Positions 50,211 through 64,000 of a stretch of 64,000 bases of DNA are shown here, one piece after another. A model generated the notes under the pieces. It did not search any database. It was given only the letters and a program-made list of their open reading frames with translations, and was not told where the DNA came from. Where the stretch lies: contig JAECUM010001811.1 of assembly GCA_016617855.1 (NCBI GenBank), forward strand, positions 62,001 to 126,000. The letters run 5' to 3'. Source of the stretch: Megalonaias nervosa (Eukaryota > Mollusca > Bivalvia > Unionida > Unionidae). A program made the position numbers and the translations under genes. Numbering within the stretch: position 1 is the stretch's first letter; each line of letters starts with the position of its first letter.

Positions 50211-52132
50211 TCCAGAAGAGGAAGAACATGCTTCCTTCCTATTCAGTTACATGTGACGCTTTCAGCAAGGTCCCAGGTGCCGTCTGACCACTGGCAACAT
50301 ATAGGACATCCATCTATTTGCGTACATTTTGTACATGATAAACAAATTAAGTGAGTGTCCCATGGGTAAAACTGTTGTAACTGGACAATTTTCGAGAACT
50401 CAAATTAGTGAGTACTTTTTACTGCCACAATGTCCCATGCCCTTTACGTTAGGAGAATGGGTGGGTGGTTCGTTGTGTGAACAATGCACTGCTGAAACTT
50501 ATCAATGTTGATCTTACCAATGTTACAAATTTGATAAGTACACACAATGGTTTAAAGTTCACTATAAAGAACTATTAATGACAGGCCTTGGTTACTAGCA
50601 TGAAACCATTGCACTTGTAGACATTTTCTCTTCATAGTGTTTCCATGTGTTGACTCAATGACTGTCTGGAAAAGAACGAGGATGCTCTATAAAGCATGGG
50701 CTGATGATGTAGATCAGACTTGGTTGATGCATGTGTTCTAGGAGATCTCTAGAACAGGAAGTTGGTGCATCTAACACAGTTGAGGCTTTTCCATACAGAA
50801 CGGTAAGCTTAATAATAGTGACAGGTTGAGCTATTAGTGACATTAAACTATGGGTTTCTGAAACTTAACTGATTTATTTTTTACCTGTTCCTAATGATTG
50901 GCTGAATTTTTCTGAAGTATTAGGGAATAAGTGATGTCAATGATGAAAAATTGGGAGCCATGACACAACCATGCTACTTCCTAAATCATGTTATAGTGAG
51001 GCACATTACAGTAGGTTTATCCTTTATTTCTCGTTATCTAAACAATCCACCTGTTGTACATGTTTTTGCATAGCCACCTCCTCTACACAGCCAGTTTTCT
51101 CAGCAGTTAAGTTTAGTACTCCTAGTGGGCAGCTACCCCTCTGATGTGGCATCGGCAAGCATATTAGTAAAAAAAATTCAAATTTACCCCTCACAAGCAG
51201 CCACTTTTTATCTACTATATCTTTAAAACCAATTTTTAATTCATACTGTAAGCTAAGTAATCCTATGATCTTTTCCAACGTCTGTTTCAAGTTATTGGTT
51301 TTCGTTACCAAGATAATTGTTGGCTGAAGCAGATTATAACATATACGATTACAGTTAATATCATAATCTACAAATGCTGACAGTTAAAGGAAATGGGATC
51401 AACAATGTTGTGAAAGGGTTTGATCACACTGCTGTTCTTTTCTTTGATGATTATGACTGAAGGTAACTGTCATGAATATAACTAGACCAACAGAGGTTAA
51501 ATATAGTTTGTGGATTCACACACAATAAGAAATGAATATTGAACAAAATAGGGTATCAGGCAAAGATTTTAAAATCACATTGACACTTCATTTATAAACA
51601 AGATGAAATTGCAGTACAATAAGCAACATATAAATAAGGCATTACAAAAGTTTCACATATCACAACATAAAAGGAACATTCTTAATTTAGAAAAAACAGT
51701 TCAAGTTATTCAACCCAATGAGAGTGGTGAGAGTTCAAGAGTTCTTGATGTTGGAAAGACTCAACTAAACAACATCATAAAAGACAAGGAGAATATTCTG
51801 CAGCACTTGGAAAACTGAAGAGTGAAAGAAGAATGATTCTGAATGCCAAGCGATGTCTGTACCAAGATTTAATGACAAAGTTCTGAATGGTTTTGCACTG
51901 CATATGCCAAGAACATCCCACTTACAAGTCAATTCATTCAAGAAGAGGCAACCATTTTATCAGTTTAAATAGAATAAATACTTTATGCTTAGGCATTAAG
52001 AACTATTAATGTATGTTCACTATTCTTACAACAAAAATAATCTTTTGATAATTAATGTTACTTTTAAATGAAATTATTATCATACTCCACCTCTATCTCT
52101 CACATGTCATATATCATGGTTACAATATTCAC
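50211..52132. other. Intron sequence, no gene
   Basis: AT-rich intron between the DIRS relic and the catalytic exon. Short ORFs lack splice support or motifs. A small direct repeat (TGATGTAG..CAG) is not meaningful. Confidence 0.5.
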
Positions 52133-53433: not shown

Positions 53434-53809
53434 TAACCAGTTATTTACTGACCCTTAAACTCAAATACATGTACCTGCAGGACTAATTTTGCACAAAGCT
53501 AACACCTAATACAACACAGCCAGACTGAGCGAAAGAGAAAACTGCAAAAAGTAAATGATACAAAACTGACTTCAACCTTATATTTTCCGACCCTAGAAAT
53601 GGAGAACCACAATCTCTAGATACAGAAAACACAAAAGGGTAAAACAAAATCTGGATTAAACAAAATCTGGATAAAACAATCTACCAGGACTAAGAAGAAC
53701 TTGTGTCTAGAAATACTAACAGTGTCCTTGAGGTTTTATCGTATTTACTGCCTAATATAATGCAGTTTATGCATTTAATTTATGTATATGCCACAAAGTC
53801 TTAGAAAAA

Positions 53810-53876
<67 letters not shown>
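53810..53876. repeat. (TA)n microsatellite
   Basis: About 66 bp of alternating AT, self-complementary. Confidence 0.97.
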
Positions 53877-53879
<3 letters not shown>

Positions 53880-55147
53880 ATCCACTCTTTCAAAATTTAC
53901 CAAATGAAAAGGAACTATTTTGGCCCCTTCTGGAAAACTTATCTTGGTAATTAATCTGGCATTAAAAATGATGGATAACATAAAATGTACATGAAAACCA
54001 TCTGAATTTTACCACACTTTAATTTTATGACAAATTATTAAACAAGCTATATGTATCATTATTGTGACATACATTTTTTTATGCAAATAGGGCAGGCCAT
54101 AGCAATAAACACCTGTGAATAGAAGTATTACTTTAATCTAAAGCATATGTTTAGCAGAATTCTTTAAATTTAGCAAGGCTGGGTCTTTTACCACAATTTC
54201 TAAATGTGTATATGGTATGCAGTGTTCACAATGATACCTTTTGATTGAACCAATTCAAAACTCAATGTATGCTCAGATCTACACATCTGACTTACAGCTG
54301 ATGGCTATTTATATGTATGCCACTGAAAATTTACATGCTGTACCTTGCTCAACTTGTTATTGTTTCATTTGCTGTACCTTTTTATTTAAAACCTCAAATC
54401 ATGACAGGATTCAATTTGTAATACATGTCATTGTTCAATATACCCAAAACTTTTGGCAAAAACATCCTTGGGAACATCATAATATTGTTTTGTACAGATA
54501 TACATGGTCTAAGTCTTTTAGACAAAACAGAGCAGGTAATATATACAGGTGCAGCGTGGCACACGTCTTGCTTTATGAACTCAGAGTGTAGGTACAGAGC
54601 TACATGCTATGAAAATTTATATGTAAAAAGGCACACATGGCAGCCAATGCAACTAGAGTAGTGGAGCATCACTAATAATACTTATGAAGTGGATGCTAAA
54701 ATAAAAGTTACCTATAGGAAAGGCCAACTGACTGCCTGTACAGGTAAAATCACTCAAACATCCCTTATAGTAACTACGAAGTGGATGCTATGACCAAACT
54801 ATGCATTGAAAACTTACCTGCATGTATCCAACTGCGCCAGAAACTATACAGGTATAATATCAATTGTAAGATAGTGTTACCAGCAGGAAAGGCTAAATGA
54901 CTGCCTACTGGTGCCAATCCTGTATCAAGTGGAGATCACTCTATCTAAATTTCACTTTGGTGGAGAGATCATTTTTATCATTGTAGCTAAAACTTTTAGC
55001 CAGTGAGAGCTAGATTTGTAAGGTTGTAATAGTTCTCCTGTAATGATTGGGTAACATATCTGAATAAAATGTGGAAGTATATGTCTTAACTGGAATTAAG
55101 TTCCTGCATCACTAACAGTCATGTACATATTAATTTACACAGTAACA
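53877..55147. other. Non-coding flank of the viral-type element; low-copy repeat
   Basis: Within 54660-54920 the phrase 'GAAAGGC.AA.TGACTGCCT' occurs twice, as does 'CTA.GAAGTGGATGCTA', so this is a small diverged tandem repeat. One 116-codon ORF (54241-54591) has no recognisable motif and overlaps another frame. It is probably chance. Confidence 0.5.
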
Positions 55148-55425
55148 GCAGCAGGCAGGGTGAACAGACAACTTGTGTTCCTGGCCTTATTTTACAAAAA
55201 TAAAGGTTCCTACAGGGGCTGAAAAATAAGGTCAATAACGCTAAACCGAACCTCCTAACTTTTATTATTACCGTATAGTTTGAAAAAACGGATAATAAAT
55301 CATTTTTGGTTAGCTCATTTTTATTATTTTATTTTTGACTTTTTTGTTTTTTATGTTATAACGCGTTTAGTTTACTCGCGGGTCAATTAATTTTTGTCGG
55401 CCGCCCTGCCTGCTGCTATAACTTA
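55148..55425. repeat. Inverted repeat pair near the left edge of the viral-type element
   Basis: AGCAGCAGGCAGGG at about 55148-55161 and its exact complement CCCTGCCTGCTGCT at about 55404-55417 enclose about 240 bp. The enclosed part holds another stem (ATTATTACCGT with ACGGATAATAAAT) and a GC-rich patch (CTCGCGGGTC). It could be a border structure, a short MITE, or part of the element's terminal region. No matching copy was seen at the right side because the window ends. Confidence 0.5.
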
Positions 55426-55434
55426 AACAGCCAG

Positions 55435-55442
55435 TATAAATA
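55435..55442 (+). promoter_or_regulatory. TATA-like box before the structural gene cluster
   Basis: TATAAATA sits just before the first long open frame, in sequence that otherwise has no coding. Position and sense fit a promoter for the cluster. It contains the stop codon (55437-55439) that closes the frame upstream. No initiator motif was identified. Confidence 0.35.
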
Positions 55443-56801
55443 TTATTAATAAAGGTCGTCATTGGCGAACCACATTCAGCTAGATTAGCAAGAGAGCGAC
55501 TAGAAGCAATTAGAAAATATTTACCTGTTCGTGATGCTGTCAAGCAACAATTACAAGAATGTCAGGAATCTCATGTTGAATTTGAAGAGGATACAAAACA
55601 ATTATTTAAACCTATTACAGAGACAACTAAACCTCTTCTTCCTGTTTTAGAGAAAACTGCTGAAGCAACTGGAAAAATAGCAGAAAGAACAAAACAGACA
55701 AAAAGACTTTTACGAGAACTTCCAATAGAAATAGCTGCTGCTCAGCCACCGAGGGATATACCAGAATTAATTGAAGGTGATTCGAGTGTTCCCCTTGTTA
55801 AACCAAAAACATCAAGAAAAAAATATGAAAAAAAGCCAGTAACCAAACTTTCCGCACGGGGTCTTATGTACGCTAGTGATGATCCTACTGGAGTCGCTGC
55901 TACAGGATATGCTTATCGTGATCTTTTTTTAGATCCGGATACTCCTGATATTCCAAGAAATAAATGGAGTTCTTTTATATTTCGAACCATTAACAAAATA
56001 ACCAAAATCACCGGTAAACATCGAAATAATTTTAAAAAATTTGAGGATGATGTTAAAAAATATGAAAAGGAATTTATTCGTAGAGGTATCAAGGATAGTG
56101 AACAGAGAGCAATATTGGAAAGAGAATTAAAAGAATATAAAGAAGAAGAAGAAGAAAGAGAAGAATTGTATGAAGAACAACAATCACCATCGCCACCACA
56201 ACAACCATCATTATCATTACCACCGCCATTACAACCAACACCAGCGGAAGCAGCAAAAGGACGAAAAGTAAAAGGATCAAAATATTGGTCGCCAGCCTCA
56301 CAGAAAATTCTGGAAGAACAACAATCATCTGAACCTGCGAAGGTATTAGAAAGAGAAAAGGAAATTAAAAAATTAACTGGCAATGCTAGATATTATAAAG
56401 AAAATATAGATTCAATAAGAAAGAGTAAATTCTTCCTTTCAGAACCCTTTAAATCAGGAATTGAGAGAAATATTGATATCCTAATGAAAATTAGAACCAA
56501 ATTATTTGAATTAAGAGTACCAGAATCTGAAATCGATGAAATTATTCCAATATCCTATTTAAGAGTTATTGGAAGTGGTCTCTCTACTGGAGGTGATTTT
56601 ACTCTATGTCCAAATAACGTCATTGCTGATGTTGAACGTCTGGAGATTCTCATCGGAGGAAAACGAGCTGGTAATAATTCTCCAGAAATAATTAATGAAG
56701 CGGCCGATATTTGTAGACGATTATTTACTGGCGGTATCATGGACGTTGATGTTTATCAGTCTCTTATTAATGAAATTGCCGATGACTACTACAGTGACTA
56801 A
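55440..56801 (+). CDS. Helical, Pro-rich structural-type protein, start unclear
   Basis: The frame is open from 55440 to the stop at 56799-56801 (about 453 codons), but the first ATG is only at 55866 (311 residues). The coding character clearly extends upstream of that ATG: an Arg/Glu-rich helical region begins near VIGEPHSARLARERLEAIRK, followed by LLPVLEKTAEATGKIAERTK. So the gene is either 5'-truncated or starts by splicing or a non-AUG codon. After the ATG come MYASDDPTGVAATGYAYRDL, a Lys/Glu coiled-coil-like stretch, a run of acidic Glu, a PPQQPSLSLPPPLQPTP linker and a C-terminal helical domain. No enzyme motif is seen. Its place first in the structural cluster suggests a virion or assembly protein, but that is inference. 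Confidence 0.6.
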   Translation: MLLIKVVIGEPHSARLARERLEAIRKYLPVRDAVKQQLQECQESHVEFEEDTKQLFKPITETTKPLLPVLEKTAEATGKIAERTKQTKRLLRELPIEIAAAQPPRDIPELIEGDSSVPLVKPKTSRKKYEKKPVTKLSARGLMYASDDPTGVAATGYAYRDLFLDPDTPDIPRNKWSSFIFRTINKITKITGKHRNNFKKFEDDVKKYEKEFIRRGIKDSEQRAILERELKEYKEEEEEREELYEEQQSPSPPQQPSLSLPPPLQPTPAEAAKGRKVKGSKYWSPASQKILEEQQSSEPAKVLEREKEIKKLTGNARYYKENIDSIRKSKFFLSEPFKSGIERNIDILMKIRTKLFELRVPESEIDEIIPISYLRVIGSGLSTGGDFTLCPNNVIADVERLEILIGGKRAGNNSPEIINEAADICRRLFTGGIMDVDVYQSLINEIADDYYSD

Positions 56802-56832
56802 GTACGTAATTAAATACAATTACTATAATAAA

Positions 56833-57279
56833 ATGATTGTACATAGTACTCAACGTGGACCAACCACAGTCAGGGTAATAAATTCACGATTACCAGTATA
56901 CAAAACAACCTACGGAGATGGACTAGGTGATGTTGTTCAGGGTCTATTTAGAAGGATAGCCCCAAAAGCAATACCGATCGCAAAGCAACTGGGTATGAAA
57001 GCTATTGATGTTGTTCGTGAAAAAGGTATTGGTGCTGTTGGTGATGTTGCCAGTAAAGCATTTTCAGCGATCAAAGATAGACTAGCACGATTAATACGAC
57101 GAAAACCTCAACCACTAAAATTACCTAGTACTGAAGCAATACCTGCAAATGTCAGTAAAATAATAAATCAAGTTGCTAATCAAAAACTAGCAGAGTTGGC
57201 TGATGTACCAATGTCAGAAAAAGAAAAAAATATAACCGCTAGTCTGATAGCAGGAAGTGGTCTTCGTTTTAGACGATAA
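56833..57279 (+). CDS. Small basic amphipathic core/minor-capsid-type protein
   Basis: 148 residues from the ATG at 56833. An upstream in-frame ATG at 56695 would overlap the previous gene by over 100 bp, so the later start is preferred. Near residue 30 is GDGLGDVVQGLFRRIAPKAI, a Gly-rich amphipathic helix. Repeated Val/Ala helices with Lys/Arg follow (AIKDRLARLIRRKPQ), and the C-terminus is GSGLRFRR. A GLFR-containing helix of this kind is a recurring component next to the capsid gene in invertebrate integrated elements of this type (recalled), and it resembles adenovirus-style membrane-lytic or core proteins in character. The spacing to the capsid gene is 14 bp. Confidence 0.65.
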   Translation: MIVHSTQRGPTTVRVINSRLPVYKTTYGDGLGDVVQGLFRRIAPKAIPIAKQLGMKAIDVVREKGIGAVGDVASKAFSAIKDRLARLIRRKPQPLKLPSTEAIPANVSKIINQVANQKLAELADVPMSEKEKNITASLIAGSGLRFRR

Positions 57280-57293
57280 TAATTATAATAAAA

Positions 57294-58626
57294 ATGTTCA
57301 AGCGCATATCTGATCCAGCATTCGACATGGACGCACCAGTACTCAAAGATGAGTCTGTGCGTGATTATCAATATTATTCTTATGACGCTCGAATTCCAGA
57401 TCAGCATGGACGAATTGAACTACAGGTTCAGGATACAAGTAGGTATTTCCTACCCGCTGAGGCTTTTATTGAGGTAGAAGGTGAAATTTTAAATAACGCT
57501 GCTCCTGCAGCACCAGTAGCATATGGAGCTGAAGTTAGGGTTGGTTTTGTTAATAATGGCATCATGGCGTTGTTTGATAGTGCTACGTACATGATTGACG
57601 GAAAAAATATTGAATCAATTCAAAAGGACGTTGATGTTGCTACAACGATATTAGGTCTTGCAAGATACAGCAACGATTATTCAAGATCAACCGGTCCATC
57701 AATGATGTTTGTAAAGGATACTTCTAACCACCCTGATAACAGACGATATAATTTAGTACAAACACCGCGTGTTACTGCATCCGATCCACAACCAGCAGGA
57801 ATGATAGCACGGCCTGTTGCTGATTTTTTGTTATTGCAAAGTGTTAATCCCAATTTCAACTTAGGATTTGCAGCACGTAGATCAATGTTAAAAGGTGAAA
57901 GAAGAGCATTTTCATGTGCCATTCCACTATCACATATCTTTGGATTCTGTAGAAATGTCAGAAAAGTCATTTTTGGAGCCAAACATATGGTTGTACTTGT
58001 ACGAAAAGCAACCAACAACGATGCATTATGGAGACCCATTGGTGATGCTGGTAGAGTAATTCTGACAAAACTTTCATCATGGATGCCGGTGATGACTCCA
58101 ACAGTATCTGAAGAAGATCGGTTACTTGCTTTTATGAATCAAGGTGGTAAATCAGCGTTGTCATGGTTAACAATGACCACAGATGCTATCCAGAGTAATA
58201 TTAATGGTTTATTTACATGGCAAATAGCTTATGATATTTGACAATCTTGGTGTTTCCGAGGTTTCTTTAAGAATAAATGGACATCAAGAACCATCTGAGG
58301 ATATTTTACTGAATTTTGAACAAAATCATGTAGCACGTGCATATCATCGTCTGATGACGTTCATGGGACGTGATCAAAATATTGATACTGGTTTACAAAT
58401 ATCACAGTTAGATTTTACAACCCTATATCCAATTTATTACTTTTCGCTCGAACATTTAGATTTAACCAGACAGTCAGTAGTCGATGTACATTTTCGAGCT
58501 CGTGTGACAATAGGAGCTATTGCCAATTACAGAGCAATTGCTGTCATACTCAGCGATAAATCAATGTTACTTGAAGGTGTTGGTGGACGAATGAGAGTCG
58601 TTGATGCTCCAGTAGAAAACATGTAA
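57294..58626 (+). pseudogene. Jelly-roll-type major capsid protein candidate, frame broken once
   Basis: The first frame runs 57294-58241 (315 codons) and the second 58231-58626. The break falls within 58231-58241 at a short T run. Together they would be roughly 440 residues. The N-terminal part has alternating hydrophobic strands (YYSYDARIPDQHGRIELQV, YFLPAEAFIEVEGEI), then NNGIMALFDSATYMIDGK, FSCAIPLSHIFGFCRN and VRKVIFGAKHMVVLVRK. The C-terminal frame includes LYPIYYFSLEHLDLTRQS and IGAIANYRAIAVILSDKS. Strand-rich content, size and position before the protease fit a double-jelly-roll capsid, and the strand order matches proteins I recall from invertebrate integrated elements. The fold is inferred, not computed. 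Confidence 0.7.
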
Positions 58627-58649
58627 TTAGATCGTTTATGAATATTATA

Positions 58650-59529
58650 ATGTCGTGTAATCACGTTAATGTTAGTCTGACTCCTGATCAGATTAAAAGG
58701 ATACAATCAGCATCAAATAATAACTGGATTAAAAATATTGCTAAAGAAAGAGCAGATGAGCGGTTCAAATAAATTATCTCTTACAGAACGTCAGCTCAGG
58801 CATTTCGATGAAGCCAAAAAATCAAATAAAGGTACAAAACTTAATCTTTCTGCGGATGCCATTAAAGACATCATTAAGACGGGTGGTATATTTCCACTTC
58901 TTGCTGCTATACCAGCATTAATAGCCGCTGCAGCCCCTGCTGCTGCAAAAGCAGCTGCATTAGGCGCTGTTGGAACCGCTGCTGGAATGGCATTAAAGAA
59001 AGCAACAGGAAAGGGAATCAAAAAAAAAGGGAAGGGGTCTAAGATTGCCAGGGACTCCACATTCATGGTACGGAAAAGGCCTGAGATTACCAGGGACAGT
59101 TTACTAATATCTCCTATGTCCAATTTTGATTTACTAGATGCTGCTAAAAAATTAAAAATAAAAAATTTTAGAGGAGTTTTTATGCATGATCAATTACCAA
59201 AACAACCAAACAATATTGAAACCGGTATTATTAATCTCGATGAAAACTCTGGTCCAGGCACACATTGGGTCGGATATGCAATTGATCCACGTGGAATTAT
59301 TTATTTTGATTCATATGGACGAGCTCCACCAAAAGAATTCTTAAAGTATATTAGCGGCTATCAAAGTACTCCAATATGGTATTCAACGTTACCAACACAA
59401 ACATTAACTGATCCACCAGTATGTGGTCGTGAAGTACTTAATGTACTTGATGCTGTATCAAAATCAACAAAACCACCTCACAAAGTTGTACATGAATATA
59501 CTACGACGTCACATTTAAACAGACATTAG
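58650..59529 (+). CDS. Membrane-active segment fused to adenain-type cysteine protease; 5' end frame-shifted
   Basis: The main frame starts at ATG 58756 and ends at 59529 (about 257 residues). A short upstream frame (ATG 58650, stop 58770-58772) encodes SLTPDQIKRIQSASNNNW, which parallels SLTERQLRHFDEAKKSN in the main frame, so the true N-terminus probably lies upstream of a frame break near 58750-58770. Residues 40-75 of the main frame are hydrophobic and Ala-rich (PLLAAIPALIAAAAP...ALGAVGTAAGMAL), followed by basic KGIKKKGKGSK: a likely membrane-penetrating or core peptide. The C-terminal domain has GTHWVGYAIDP (catalytic His), IYFDSYGRAPP (Asp at the acidic position) and PPVCGREVLNVL (nucleophile Cys followed by Gly). 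This matches peptidase family C5, which matures capsid proteins. The triad looks intact. Confidence 0.8.
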
Positions 59530-59537
59530 TAAATATA

Positions 59538-60623
59538 ATGGTGGATATTTATGGAAGATCTTCTCGTGGTAAAGGTCAGCAGCAAGCTGATTTATCTAAA
59601 TACGCAACTCTCAATCAGCTCAGAAATGAGGTTGATGATTTATTAAACATAACCAGTGTGGATCAAAACGAAGTAGTTGTTTTTCAGGATAAGGAAGGAC
59701 AATTAAAAACTAGTAATATACAACTGCCAGATGTACTCATACGAGTTCCTAATGCGATGGTTAATAATATAGTTACTTTTACTGATCAGGGTAAAATACA
59801 AGATTCCGGTATGTCAGTCAGCGATTATATTAAGAAAGCTGGTGATTCATTCAGGGGTAGCATTATTATGAATCAAAATAAAATTATAGACCTTGGAAAC
59901 CCAACCGCAGATACAGACGCCGCAACAAAGAAATATGTCGACAATCAAGAATCTAAGTACGTATTGGCCAACGACGGTATAATGCGTGCATTTCTCAACA
60001 TGAATAATAATGGCATTAATAATCTTAGAACACCGGAATATGATTTTGATGCTGCAACGAAAAAGTATGTTGATGATAAGGAAATTCCTATTTCAACTTC
60101 GTTAAAAACAATCGGTGATGAAATTACTACACTGAATGGTACTTTTTCTAGACATGTAGAAACATTCTTAAATTTTCGTAGAAATGTAAACAAAACCATT
60201 AAAGAATTTTTTGGGGAACAACCAACCGTTGACATAAAACTCTCCGACGTTAACATGAAACTCAATGATATTGTCAGTGGAATACCTAATATTGTTCAAA
60301 AAACTAATCTGATTAAAATTCCACACGGACAAATTAAAAATATCGTATATACAGTAGCATCAGGATTAACAACATGGTCACAGCAAAATAACACTATTAA
60401 ATATACCGCAGAAGTTACTGGTGTTTATAGACTATCTATATTCAGCTCTGCAAAGTTTAAAATTTATACTACAACATTTCCGTGGCGTCATTCAACAGAT
60501 GCTTTCTCTGGAGTTGTATCTATAGTGTTAAATAAAGATGCTGAAGAAATATTTTTACTGGAAGCAGATGATCAAACAATAACCGCAACGTCCTTACTGG
60601 TGGTGTTTGGAATTTGTAGCTGA
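59538..60623 (+). CDS. Trimeric fibre-like attachment protein
   Basis: 361 residues, starting 8 bp after the protease stop. The N-terminal tail (SSRGKGQQQADLSKYATLNQ) is followed by helical shaft. Two repeats then appear: MNQNKIIDLGNPTADTDAAT plus KKYVDNQ (about residues 111-136), and MNNNGINNLRTPEYDFDAAT plus KKYVDDK (about residues 154-180). The 'M-x-x-N-x-I-x-x-L-x-x-P-x-x-D-x-DAATKKYVD' unit is the well-known trimeric repeat of phage tail fibres. The C-terminal ~90 residues are strand-rich (WSQQNNTIKYTAEVTGVYRL...) and could form a trimeric knob of C1q/TNF-like type (inference). The likely role is receptor attachment at the virion vertex. Confidence 0.75.
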   Translation: MVDIYGRSSRGKGQQQADLSKYATLNQLRNEVDDLLNITSVDQNEVVVFQDKEGQLKTSNIQLPDVLIRVPNAMVNNIVTFTDQGKIQDSGMSVSDYIKKAGDSFRGSIIMNQNKIIDLGNPTADTDAATKKYVDNQESKYVLANDGIMRAFLNMNNNGINNLRTPEYDFDAATKKYVDDKEIPISTSLKTIGDEITTLNGTFSRHVETFLNFRRNVNKTIKEFFGEQPTVDIKLSDVNMKLNDIVSGIPNIVQKTNLIKIPHGQIKNIVYTVASGLTTWSQQNNTIKYTAEVTGVYRLSIFSSAKFKIYTTTFPWRHSTDAFSGVVSIVLNKDAEEIFLLEADDQTITATSLLVVFGICS

Positions 60624-60655
60624 AACACCGCAATTAGTCACTTAATATAACAATA

Positions 60656-61194
60656 ATGGATCAACCTCAGTCTCGCATCGACGTTCAACGTTACAGATGC
60701 AATCAGATATGTGAGCGTCTGACTAAACTAAATAATTTTATTGATTATTATAACACGAAAATAAAAAAAATACAAAAGGCGTATAGTTGTTATTGATGTA
60801 GTTGTTTACTCGGTTTCTGCTGTTATTGCTGGAACAGGATTATTATTATCAACATTGACGATGACAGCACCTACTGTTATAACCATCATTGTTTCAGCAT
60901 CAACGACTATTGCTGGTGTTCTAGGTATTATAGCCAAAAAAGATAGATACCTGTACAAATGCTAAATTGCACGATTATATGATTAAATTACATACAGTGG
61001 CAGAGGCATGCTCTAAACTATCTTTGTACATTTCTTCGTGTGTCAGTGATGGTGAAATATCTGATACTGAATTCGCGATGATGATGAAAACCTATGATGA
61101 CACTTTTAAGGTGATCGCTAATGATTTTAATGAATTAAATAATAATGATAATAATAATGACAGACAGGGAGTTACTTCAGCAGATCGTCACTAA
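60656..61194 (+). pseudogene. Two-TM SLATT-like protein, frame broken twice
   Basis: Three frames follow one another: 60656-60796 (N-terminal helix with CERLTKLNNFIDYYNTKIKK), 60783-60965 (two hydrophobic helices, VVVYSVSAVIAGTGLLLS and TVITIIVSASTTIAGVLGII, separated by TLTMTAP and followed by AKKDRYLYK) and about 60958-61194 (long helix, HDYMIKLHTVAEACSKLSLY, with an Asp/Asn-rich end). A helix, a tight TM hairpin and a long C-terminal helix is the layout of SLATT-type 2TM proteins, which act as pore effectors in prokaryotic defence systems. Similarity here is architectural only. The breaks fall at an A-run near 60769-60785 and at about 60955-60965. The role in the virus-like element is unknown. 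Confidence 0.6.
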
Positions 61195-61939
61195 TACAAC
61201 TCCGTCAAAAACTACTATGATATCGTTAAGTTCGACCAATCCTGAATTTAGTGTCAATTTTCCAACATCAATTCCTGCAAAAGAAATAGCATTAGCGCAA
61301 TTGCGAGTTTATTATAGCTGGCCCAATATTAGATCAAAACCATTTGGTGGACTACAGCCAAATAATTCATTAGTATTCGCCAATAAGAATAAACCTGATG
61401 GAACTCCTGATTGGCAAGTAGTTGCTATTCCAATGGGCAGTTATCAGATTAATGATGAGTTCCAACGCAGAATTAAATCTATTACAGGAAAAGAATCAAA
61501 AATAGCAATTACTGTCTACGAACCGACACTATCTGCGGTTATTGAAATAAATTCCCCTGATTATTCCGTAGATATTTATCAAAGTTCGATTAAATCAGTA
61601 TTAGGATGGCCTGAAGTTCCACAGGTTTATCAAGGACCACCAGAACCACAACGATCTGATTTCGTCGTAGATGTTGAAAAATTTATAAAACCTCCAGAAT
61701 ATCGAAAAACTTATCCATTTATAGAGACTCCGGATGCTTATCGTGGTTATGCACAGTATAATCATTTTATAGATTTCGTTCGGGGTAAAGGTACAACAAG
61801 AATAGCAACAATTAATGTTGAAGAAATTAACTCAAAATCAAGACCAATTAAATCTGAACATGGACGTGTACTTAATGATCTAAGAAATTTATTTTCCAGC
61901 ATCAACACTTTTTATGACGATGATTTAAAAATCAAATAA
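61157..61939 (+). CDS. Penton-like minor capsid protein candidate
   Basis: About 260 residues from the ATG at 61157; another in-frame ATG 12 bp upstream is possible. It overlaps the end of the 2TM gene by about 38 bp. The start, MTDRELLQQIVTN, leads to TMISLSSTNPEFSVNFP, then IALAQLRVYYSWPNIRSKP, NNSLVFANKN, GSYQINDEFQRRIKSITG and AVIEINSPDYSVDI. This is a regular strand pattern with 'Y-x-S-x-PNI' and 'I-P-x-G-S-Y-Q-I' motifs that I associate with a single-jelly-roll vertex protein of invertebrate integrated elements. The second half has basic and aromatic patches (FIKPPEYRKTYPFIETPD). No break is seen. Its role as penton is inferred from size, fold type and neighbours. Confidence 0.65.
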   Translation: MTDRELLQQIVTNTTPSKTTMISLSSTNPEFSVNFPTSIPAKEIALAQLRVYYSWPNIRSKPFGGLQPNNSLVFANKNKPDGTPDWQVVAIPMGSYQINDEFQRRIKSITGKESKIAITVYEPTLSAVIEINSPDYSVDIYQSSIKSVLGWPEVPQVYQGPPEPQRSDFVVDVEKFIKPPEYRKTYPFIETPDAYRGYAQYNHFIDFVRGKGTTRIATINVEEINSKSRPIKSEHGRVLNDLRNLFSSINTFYDDDLKIK

Positions 61940-62298
61940 TTGAAACAATACAACATTTGAATCAAGTTGCATCAGACTTAGAATATGTAAGTATGTATTG
62001 ATGCATCTTTTGACTCTGATAACCTTAAATTCACGTCGGTTTATACAAGTGCGTTGAATTACAAATCAAAGTTATTTTTAGCTCTTATAACACATGTATT
62101 TTGACCTAACGAACGATAACTCATACAGAAAATATAATATGCGATTATTTTATGAATTATGTTTGAAAAATTGAAGTAAATTCACGCTACAGTTCTACAA
62201 TAACTGATTTTATTCTATTAGTAAATACAAGTCCAGAGTAATCACATGTGAGACAGTGCAAATAGTTATATACTTAAATTTAACTATATATTCATAAG
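61940..62298 (+). other. AT-rich spacer after the structural genes
   Basis: About 360 bp without ORF or repeat. It starts the long non-coding block between the structural module and the downstream genes. A 3' end for the structural transcript would be expected here, but no clear poly(A) signal pair was identified. Confidence 0.5.
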
Positions 62299-62375
62299 AG
62301 ATGCGGTGGCCGAGGTGTTAAGGCGTTTGCACGCAGATCAACTTCTGTAGACTCGCTGTGTGTTCGAGTCTCCAA
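62299..62375 (+). other. tRNA-like sequence (pseudo-tRNA, Ser/Leu-like)
   Basis: GCGGTGGCCGAGGTGTTAAGGC is a strong A-box/D-arm match to tRNA-Ser/Leu, and GTGTTCGAGTCTC is a good B box. The acceptor arms do not pair and the anticodon stem is poor, so it is not a working tRNA. It may be a decayed tRNA, a SINE head, or an RNA polymerase III promoter remnant. Confidence 0.6.
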
Positions 62376-62424
62376 AATGCTAAAGATATATTATCTTGCA
62401 TTCGGCGAGGGATGCTATTTATAA

Positions 62425-62560
62425 TTGGGGGTACGAAACCCAACAGAAAAATAATACACTCTCCCACCATGTAACCACGTGGAGGGTGTACTTTTGCACT
62501 CTCCATGGGGTTATCATGGAGAGAGTGTATAAAATCTGTTGGACGCAGGTAAATCCCCCC
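62425..62560. repeat. Large foldback with two inner hairpins
   Basis: The outer arms TTGGGGG...CCCAACAG and CTGTTGG...ATCCCCCC are complementary, as are the next arms ATACACTCTCC and GAGAGAGTGTAT. Inside are two hairpins, ACACTCTCC..GGAGGGTGT (62456-62489) and CACTCTCCATG..CATGGAGAGAGTG (62497-62528), that share the ACTCTCC block. The result is a cruciform-like three-way structure of about 135 bp. It could be a MITE or a functional site of the element. Confidence 0.75.
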
Positions 62561-62578
62561 GTTGTATTCCGTCAATAG

Positions 62579-62826
62579 TTAAGTTTATGTTTGTTGTTAA
62601 GTTTATGTTTGTGCTGTCTGCAAAAATCAAAATCAAAATCATCACCATTTGTATATATTCATGTTCATACAATCATATGTTCATTAGGATAAGTTTGGAT
62701 AAGTTTACGTTTGTTGTTAAGTTTATGTTTGTTGTTAAGTTTATGTTTGTGCTGTCTGCAAAAAATCAAAATCAAAATCATATGTATATATAATCATGAT
62801 CATACAATCATATGTTCATTAGGTTA
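62579..62826 (+). repeat. Tandem ~120-bp repeat with 18-bp sub-units
   Basis: TTAAGTTTATGTTTGTTG repeats as a short unit five times or so. It lies within a longer duplicated block that ends GCTGTCTGCAAAAA(A)TC, AATCAAAATCAT, then CATACAATCATATGTTCATT. Two long copies (about 62579-62689 and 62700-62826) are nearly identical. Non-coding. Confidence 0.85.
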
Positions 62827-62875
62827 AGTTTATGTGTTGTGTTTGTGTCGTTAATAAAAATTACGGATCACCCTC

Positions 62876-63068
62876 TGAACTTTCTAGGATGTTGCTTGAC
62901 AACCTAGGAGTTCACATGGGGGTTGAGTCTGTATAAATGTGTTTCGTCTAATTTCGAATATCCTCTGAGCTTTCTAGGATGTTGTTTGACAACCTAGGAG
63001 TTCACATGGGGATATATTTCGAATGCCCCTGAGCTTGCTAGAATGTTGTTTTGCAATCTAGGAGCTCA
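62876..63068 (+). ncRNA. Three homologous 39-nt stem-loops with compensatory changes
   Basis: Stem-loops lie at 62876-62914, 62966-63004 and 63030-63068. Each has outer stem TGA(A/G)CT...AG(T/C)TCA, inner stem CTAG(G/A)..(C/T)CTAG and a GTTG-loop-CAA apex, and each is followed by CATGGGG or TATGGGG. Copy 1 has A-T at one stem position, copy 2 G-T and copy 3 G-C. A second position changes from G-C to A-T in copy 3. Pairing is thus kept while sequence changes, which argues for selected RNA or DNA structure. It sits just before the ORF at 63136. It could be a terminator, an RNA element or a protein-binding site. Confidence 0.7.
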
Positions 63069-63135
63069 TATGGGGTTGTGTTGTGATTATATGTTTTGTA
63101 AATATTTTTTATTTTAAAAAAATATTTATTATATA

Positions 63136-63579
63136 ATGAACTATGAAAACATCAATGATATTATTTCTGCTATTAAAAAATTAAAACATGACGGAATAAA
63201 AATATCTGATAATCTTGATCCTCAGAAAATTATGTGTGATTTTGAATTATTACAACAACGAAAATTCGAGAATAAATACACATTGCCATCCAATTATAAA
63301 TTCGTGAAATTAATTTATCAGTCTATGTTAGAATCCTTGACAATGGTCAACGACACACAGGTGAAGCTATTTGCACCTCTTGCACGTTCAATCGAAAAGA
63401 TTAGATCCGAATTGTCTCACGAGTACGAAAGAAAAAAGATTGTGGACAATCGTGTAATGCAACTAAGAAAAATTATTTTATTTGATTCTGTCAAAAGTGA
63501 AAGTGACAGTGAGAGCAGCGACAGTGAAGGTGGACCCCTGACAGAGTCAGGGACTAAACAAAACCCCTGGCAAAATTGA
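63136..63579 (+). CDS. Unknown 147-residue protein with acidic Ser-rich tail
   Basis: ATG at 63136, preceded by an AT-rich leader (AAAAAAATATTTATTATATA). The protein is mainly helical: MNYENINDIISAIKKLKHDG, then FELLQQRKFENKYTLPSNYK, KFVKLIYQSMLESLTMVND and a long basic helix (SHEYERKKIVDNRVMQLRKI). It closes with SVKSESDSESSDSEGGPL, an Asp/Glu/Ser stretch that looks like a CK2-type acidic tail. I do not recognise the family. The position after the structured region and the opposite orientation of the next gene suggest an accessory or early gene (inference). Confidence 0.6.
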   Translation: MNYENINDIISAIKKLKHDGIKISDNLDPQKIMCDFELLQQRKFENKYTLPSNYKFVKLIYQSMLESLTMVNDTQVKLFAPLARSIEKIRSELSHEYERKKIVDNRVMQLRKIILFDSVKSESDSESSDSEGGPLTESGTKQNPWQN

Positions 63580-63641
63580 CAGAGTCGAACTATACAGTAA
63601 AAAAATATTTATTTATTCTGTTTTTTGTTAAGAATACAGAG

Positions 63642-64000
63642 TTATCTGACATATTCAAATATTATCCGCTGATTATATTTTATTGAAAATGCAGATTTGT
63701 ATGTTTTATTTGCAACAAATTGTACTGATTGGTGATGTGTGCCAAAATGTTTGGCAGCTGCATTTATTGATGGAAAAGTTATTTCTTGGCCTGTTTCTGT
63801 ATTTATGGCTTTAATAGCTCTCTTTTTAAATACTTTACACCTTCCTGTATTTCCACGTGCAGAATTCTGACTATGTGTAATAGCTTGCAGGTTACATAGA
63901 TGATTATTTTTGGGATTTCCATCAATGTGATCAACTACAAGTCCATTTTTAATCAATCCATAAAAACATTCGAATATGAATCTATGTGAGAAATAATCGT
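63642..64000 (-). CDS. HNH endonuclease with NUMOD-like C-terminus, 5' end beyond window
   Basis: The minus-strand frame is open to the window edge. It contains YFSHRFIFECFYGLIKNG, then VVDHIDGNPKNNHLCNLQAI: the DHIDG-x-x-x-x-NN-x-x-x-NL core of HNH nucleases, with the conserved Asp-His and Asn. The C-terminal ~60 residues (KAINTETGQEITFPSINAAA, then KHFGTHHQSVQFVANKTYKS) resemble NUMOD DNA-binding modules of homing endonucleases, which place a helix-turn-helix after a short strand pair. Such genes are common cargo of large DNA viruses and integrated elements. Whether it helps mobility of this element is unknown. The terminal part appears intact. Confidence 0.85.
   Translation of the reverse strand, partial: DYFSHRFIFECFYGLIKNGLVVDHIDGNPKNNHLCNLQAITHSQNSARGNTGRCKVFKKRAIKAINTETGQEITFPSINAAAKHFGTHHQSVQFVANKTYKSAFSIKYNQRIIFEYVR

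Follow-up and report, generated by a model that had tools for sequence, protein, structure and literature searches.

A decayed structural gene module, very probably of an endogenous double-jelly-roll DNA virus, in the genome of the freshwater mussel Megalonaias nervosa

Terminal inverted repeats and a target-site duplication are hallmarks of the Polinton/Maverick elements. The parts of PMC4028283 drawn on here list PolB, integrase, ATPase, protease, capsid, and penton as the Polinton genes and place the penton gene next to the capsid gene on its upstream side, or at a distance of one gene. Mavericks were present across all mollusc genomes analyzed, according to the excerpted results of PMC10294476, so Polinton-type elements in mussels are no surprise. 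For the Adintoviridae, the pertinent sections of PMC11071296 describe a hexon that BLASTp recognizes against reference sequences, a PolB with an OTU-like domain, an integrase with a chromodomain, and pentons with helical inserts in a surface loop; the same sections report that virion genes of the adinto type also occur together with replicases of other kinds, among others in a clam dataset, and the replicase that accompanies such genes is therefore not to be assumed. Here, a stretch of 64,000 nucleotides from Megalonaias nervosa (contig JAECUM010001811.1, positions 62,001 to 126,000, hereafter the window) was analyzed. A run of genes at 55440-61940 of the window is very probably what remains, in decayed form, of the structural half of an endogenous DNA virus with a double-jelly-roll capsid that belongs to the Polinton/adintovirus assemblage and was fixed in a bivalve genome.

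The five longest stop-to-stop frames between 55440 and 62000 (453, 375, 322, 282, and 266 amino acids) all lie on the forward strand, as expected from the compact run of co-directional open reading frames (ORFs) described in the original prediction, and each is longer than 198 amino acids, the longest frame found in 500 dinucleotide shuffles (median of the maxima 107). Positions 1-55000 consist of A+T-rich DNA with only six stop-to-stop frames of at least 125 amino acids. The gene run is not a product of chance because the frames exceed the shuffles, three frames have homologs, and the fibre matches phage families; it is real and viral. The large protein searches were conducted with the capsid, the penton candidate, and the combined reading of the protease and MLP, a working label for the small hydrophobic protein upstream of the protease. 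The span initially assigned to the module (55440-64000) holds as far as approximately 61,940-62,000 but not for the remainder, which is repeat-rich and holds two further ORFs. The features of the module are:

55440-56801, forward strand: charged open frame, 453 amino acids from stop to stop (311 from the first ATG, at 55866)
56833-57279, forward strand: small basic protein, inside ORF 56695-57279
57294-58626, forward strand: major capsid protein gene (double jelly roll as predicted from Pfam, relatives, and the model of a relative), broken
58650-59104, forward strand: MLP remains in three frames, the tail overlapping the protease start in another frame
59065-59529, forward strand: cysteine protease of the adenain/S273R type, 154 amino acids, with an open frame and with His at 59263-59265, Asp at 59308-59310, and Cys at 59422-59424
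59538-60623, forward strand: fibre gene, 361 amino acids, frame open, two repeats of phage tail-fibre type
60656-61194, forward strand: probable small membrane protein gene, apparently spread over three frames (hydropathy and frames)
61145-61939, forward strand: penton candidate, 264 amino acids, N-terminal part kept and C-terminal part missing

The capsid candidate matches the Pfam family DJR-like (PF21738, E = 1.1e-7, 31.8 bits with a cut-off of 27). A structural model of a full-length relative (P0001, predicted local distance difference test [pLDDT] 73.0) matches the folds of the capsid proteins of Paramecium bursaria chlorella virus 1 (PBCV-1), Sputnik, mavirus, and PRD1, with the adenovirus hexon further down the list. 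By prediction on this relative the window capsid is a double jelly roll, which agrees with the jelly-roll capsid initially proposed, and the profile match and the model together provide the capsid with two jelly rolls that marks the double-jelly-roll assemblage. The gene itself is broken: positions 57294-58229 are read in one frame and 58231-58626 in another, with approximately 28 residues gone at the frame change (residues 319-346 of P0001 have no counterpart). The capsid relatives are 426-526 amino acids long (14 aligned), about half the length of the adenovirus hexon, whose chains have 894-950 residues, and thus differ from the hexon of about 900 amino acids found in the Adenoviridae. The model also differs from the HK97-fold capsid of tailed phages; only the fibre repeat is phage-like. 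Neither prokaryote genomes, scanned once with the capsid alignment, nor phage records, searched by tblastn with the first capsid piece, yielded a match.

The protease frame shares 84% identity with a relative (P0036), and residues H67, D82, and C120 (counted from 59065) are invariant in an alignment of 16 rows (15 out of 49 hits and the window). A profile search matches S273R of African swine fever virus (ASFV, E = 8.5e-6) and adenain (E = 0.056, not significant on its own). Judged from its sequence, the product is a protease of the adenain/ASFV-S273R type with the putative catalytic His, Asp, and Cys in place, and the full catalytic set of the original prediction is thereby confirmed at the level of conserved residues. 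The 263-amino-acid ORF to which the protease had been assigned fares less well, since its protease part (59065-59529) stands but its status as a single gene does not: MLP sequence runs into protease sequence. Its 49 homologs comprise 20 with the protease alone, 25 with MLP alone, 3 with both, and 1 protease with another N-terminus; because the homologs are mostly separate and the MLP parts lie in three frames, the ORF represents two genes fused by frame slips. The MLP relative P0060 matches 58650-58724 in frame 3, 58723-58986 in frame 1, and 59021-59104 in frame 2, and this last piece, the MLP tail, retains 93% identity and is read in a different frame from the protease. The MLP-only hits (n = 25) are 147-189 amino acids long and usually end in GKGLRLPGT-type repeats. 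A run of A residues (59020-59045) lies at the junction of the two genes, where the frames switch. A programmed frameshift at this run near 59020 was considered and set aside, a simple slip being the plainer explanation in a visibly decayed copy; three of the 49 hits (P0049, P0058, and P0072) also read MLP into the protease within one frame. In a distant relative (P0081), phospholipase-A2-like and adenovirus protein-X-like parts, all below the Pfam cut-offs, are joined to the protease.

Both virion genes bear on the question of whether the module is instead a fragment of a larger nucleocytoplasmic virus (giant or asfar-like) inserted in the genome. The top PDB rows for the P0001 model include the capsids of PBCV-1, iridovirus, Emiliania huxleyi virus (EhV), and ASFV, the capsid of an abalone asfa-like virus ranks third in BFVD, ASFV S273R is the best protease match, and an HNH endonuclease lies close by. 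However, at a sequence identity of just 5-12% the order of the listed solved capsid folds says nothing reliable about kinship, and virophage and adintovirus proteins rank equally high in BFVD, where proteins of midsize eukaryotic linear DNA (MELD) viruses and adomaviruses are further fold matches. A small capsid (426-526 amino acids) with protease, fibre, and core-like genes in one compact run of 6.5 kb also argues against a giant-virus origin, which is considered very improbable. The module shares with Polintons a predicted double-jelly-roll capsid and an adenain-type protease in a host genome (PMC4028283, in the parts cited above), and with adintoviruses and MELD viruses, as these are portrayed in the relevant sections of PMC11071296, an association with animals and adenovirus-style virion genes; adintovirus and MELD-virus proteins match the fold modelled for its capsid relative. 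Virophages (Sputnik and mavirus) differ in that the kin of the module reside in mussels and not in protists, with a capsid identity of 8-12%.

The relatives also locate the module. Three of the 35 capsid hits and four of the 21 penton-candidate hits are named, all of them hypothetical proteins of Potamilus streckersoni and Sinanodonta woodiana, both Unionidae. A capsid tree was built from 23 rows (22 of the 35 hits and the first capsid piece of the window, 13 shorter hits being excluded) and places the window in a group of 16 rows (support 100/100) together with P0018 from Sinanodonta and P0023 and P0026 from Potamilus; its exact position inside this group is poorly supported. In Potamilus, the protein P0023 aligns with 56869-57111 (88% identity) and continues into the start of the capsid gene, and since it spans both genes in the same order, the small basic gene and the capsid gene are collinear there. 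The invertebrate setting of the predicted viral structural module is thus seen in two further unionid mussels. Contaminating or free viral sequence might be suspected because most of the relatives are database proteins on short contigs, but the named relatives are located on mussel contigs of up to 165 Mb, the module is preceded on its own contig by 55 kb of A+T-rich DNA that lacks long open frames, and the module itself is decayed, which makes contamination the least probable of the explanations considered and a most unlikely one. IMG/VR pattern scans returned no confirmed relative of the capsid, a distant capsid (P0035), the protease, MLP, or the penton candidate; because such scans detect only sequences that fit short degenerate patterns exactly, the misses are weak evidence.

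Among the PHROG families, the fibre hits those of head-decoration (E = 7e-10) and tail-fibre (E = 1e-9) proteins, with the best five matches between 7e-10 and 2.5e-7 and all matches within residues 39-212, bearing out the phage-style fibre of the original prediction. Residues 95-194 show 39.6% identity to Synechococcus phage tail fibres (four phage genome matches), and it is this repeat module only that is shared with the tail fibres of Synechococcus phage S-B28 and others. The IMG/VR scan with the fibre identified a single contig (L001) that is tailed-phage-like and carries the same fibre repeat, so the repeat alone is uninformative on kinship. No portal or terminase family was found among the nine ORFs scanned against PHROG. 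The tailed-phage type of the repeats sets the fibre apart from that of adenoviruses, and a phage-type fibre is not mentioned for adintoviruses in sections 14 and 16 of PMC11071296.

Downstream of the fibre, a 66-amino-acid frame (60765-60965) contains hydrophobic blocks and has apparent neighbors in other frames; 60656-61194 is probably a small membrane protein gene, which, from hydropathy and frames in the window, looks split. The hydrophobic blocks of the two-transmembrane protein originally predicted are present but the gene is not intact, its flanking parts lying in other frames, and neither 60765-60965 nor 60934-61194 matches a Pfam family. The last gene of the module, the penton candidate, has 21 homologs (the longest of 451 amino acids), including four in Potamilus or Sinanodonta with 61, 76, 62, and 61% identity, and it aligns to residues 7-281 of a 429-amino-acid relative that is itself marked partial. 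It has no credible profile match and no PHROG family below E = 0.012, and it is a candidate penton by position and by analogy to the pentons described in the cited sections of PMC11071296.

Several results weigh against an origin within the Polinton/adintovirus assemblage. Pfam scans covered 35 ORFs of the window, limited to the longer frames and, in the part left of 49.9 kb, to those of at least 125 amino acids; in these ORFs no gene for replication, integration, or packaging was recognized, and in particular no PolB, rve integrase, or FtsK/HerA-type ATPase, which would, if the element has more to it, lie past 64 kb, where the original prediction placed them. Two of the six Polinton genes listed in the consulted part of PMC4028283, capsid and protease, were found. 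No convincing terminal inverted repeat was identified in 53500-64000 among 25 of 27 pairs listed; the other end may be lost or lie outside. Pfam Peptidase_C5 (adenain) scores the adenain-type protease below its threshold (14.5 against 21.3 bits). The penton fold was not recovered, as the model of the penton candidate is of low confidence (pLDDT 50.5) with no fold match and the sequence has no credible profile match, and of the structural candidates originally put forward the capsid is thus predicted to have the expected fold and the penton candidate is not. The gene order differs from that of Polintons as well, with the penton candidate downstream of the capsid gene and four genes between them.

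Another explanation considered is a chimeric virus that combined adinto-type virion genes with a different replicase, for example the clam-associated AdintPa adomavirus. A Tegillarca clam contig described in the same sections of PMC11071296 joins a papillomavirus-like replicase to adintovirus-like virion genes, and the BFVD matches of the capsid model include adomavirus proteins, but the window offers no support for such a combination, since no replicase of any type was recognized in the ORFs scanned, and a chimera is considered unlikely. The structural half of a double-jelly-roll virus related to Polintons and adintoviruses is in keeping with the capsid, the protease, and the mussel kin, which uphold the virus-derived structural module of the double-jelly-roll/adenain assemblage at the center of the original prediction.

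In a working virus of this kind, the capsid protein would form the facets of the shell, the penton candidate might occupy the vertices, and the fibre on the shell would mediate attachment; the protease would cleave virion proteins at maturation, and the small hydrophobic and basic proteins may have served as core or membrane-active proteins. The 56833-57279 product is a possible adenovirus pVI/pX-like protein with a presumed core role. The 55440-56801 frame has no family match (the 311-amino-acid part against Pfam and PHROG, the whole frame also scanned); its product is perhaps a coiled coil, judged by eye, and possibly a core or surface protein, judged by position. Insertion may have occurred via the virus's own machinery. 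The window copy is dead, a fossil, since the capsid gene is broken, MLP is scattered over three frames, the penton candidate is truncated, and the membrane protein gene is apparently split; the viral nature of the predicted gene set is therefore retained but not its implied intactness. The frames of the protease and the fibre are still open.

With this module the Polinton/adintovirus assemblage gains a freshwater-mussel lineage, and its capsid, protease, and fibre sequences can be used to find related copies. The broad kind of virus is already known and the particular gene set is possibly little described; a search of one open-access literature library found no paper pairing “polinton-like” with “freshwater mussel”. 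A distinct freshwater-mussel virus lineage, with a double-jelly-roll shell, an adenain of about 154 amino acids overlapping a core-protein tail in another frame, a tailed-phage-type fibre, a penton with an optional helical insert, and perhaps non-Polinton replication, can be suggested only tentatively. If true, the combination of a phage-type fibre with an animal virus of the double-jelly-roll kind would indicate that genes have passed between phages and animal viruses.

The region to the right of the module contains three further features:

62427-62560, no strand assigned: imperfect hairpin of 134 nucleotides, outside the module (DNA fold -33 kcal/mol)
63136-63579, forward strand: open frame, 147 amino acids, no family match
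63642-63998, reverse strand: endonuclease of the HNH homing type, cut off by the end of the window, with a NUMOD1-like part

The hairpin (z = -6.28; 0 out of 200 shuffles fold as well) could be a foldback element resembling a miniature inverted-repeat transposable element. It is followed at 62567-63075 by several short direct-repeat families, including three 50-nucleotide copies that by eye contain an inverted repeat. The ORF at 63136 has no Pfam or PHROG family and no relative in the IMG/VR pattern scan. The HNH ORF matches Pfam HNH_3 (E = 2.5e-14), with NUMOD1 below the cut-off, and shows 31.5-39.6% identity to phage HNH proteins (8 listed of 181 records); it also matches endonucleases of group I introns below the cut-off and is of phage type, yet located in an apparent animal genome. 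A transfer RNA (tRNA)-like stretch at 62300-62375, a possible head of a short interspersed nuclear element, was noted by eye only and was discarded as it is unreported by ARAGORN and Rfam; the Rfam scan of the region gave one below-cut-off microRNA row, taken as chance. At the far left of the window, 3310-3382 matches the Rfam tRNA family (32.7, gathering score 29) and was missed by ARAGORN. Closer to the module, 51573-51818 encodes a CENP-B N-terminal DNA-binding domain (Pfam 21.4 bits, cut-off 21.2) and is probably a remnant of a pogo/Tigger-type transposon, which fits a eukaryotic transposon nearby.
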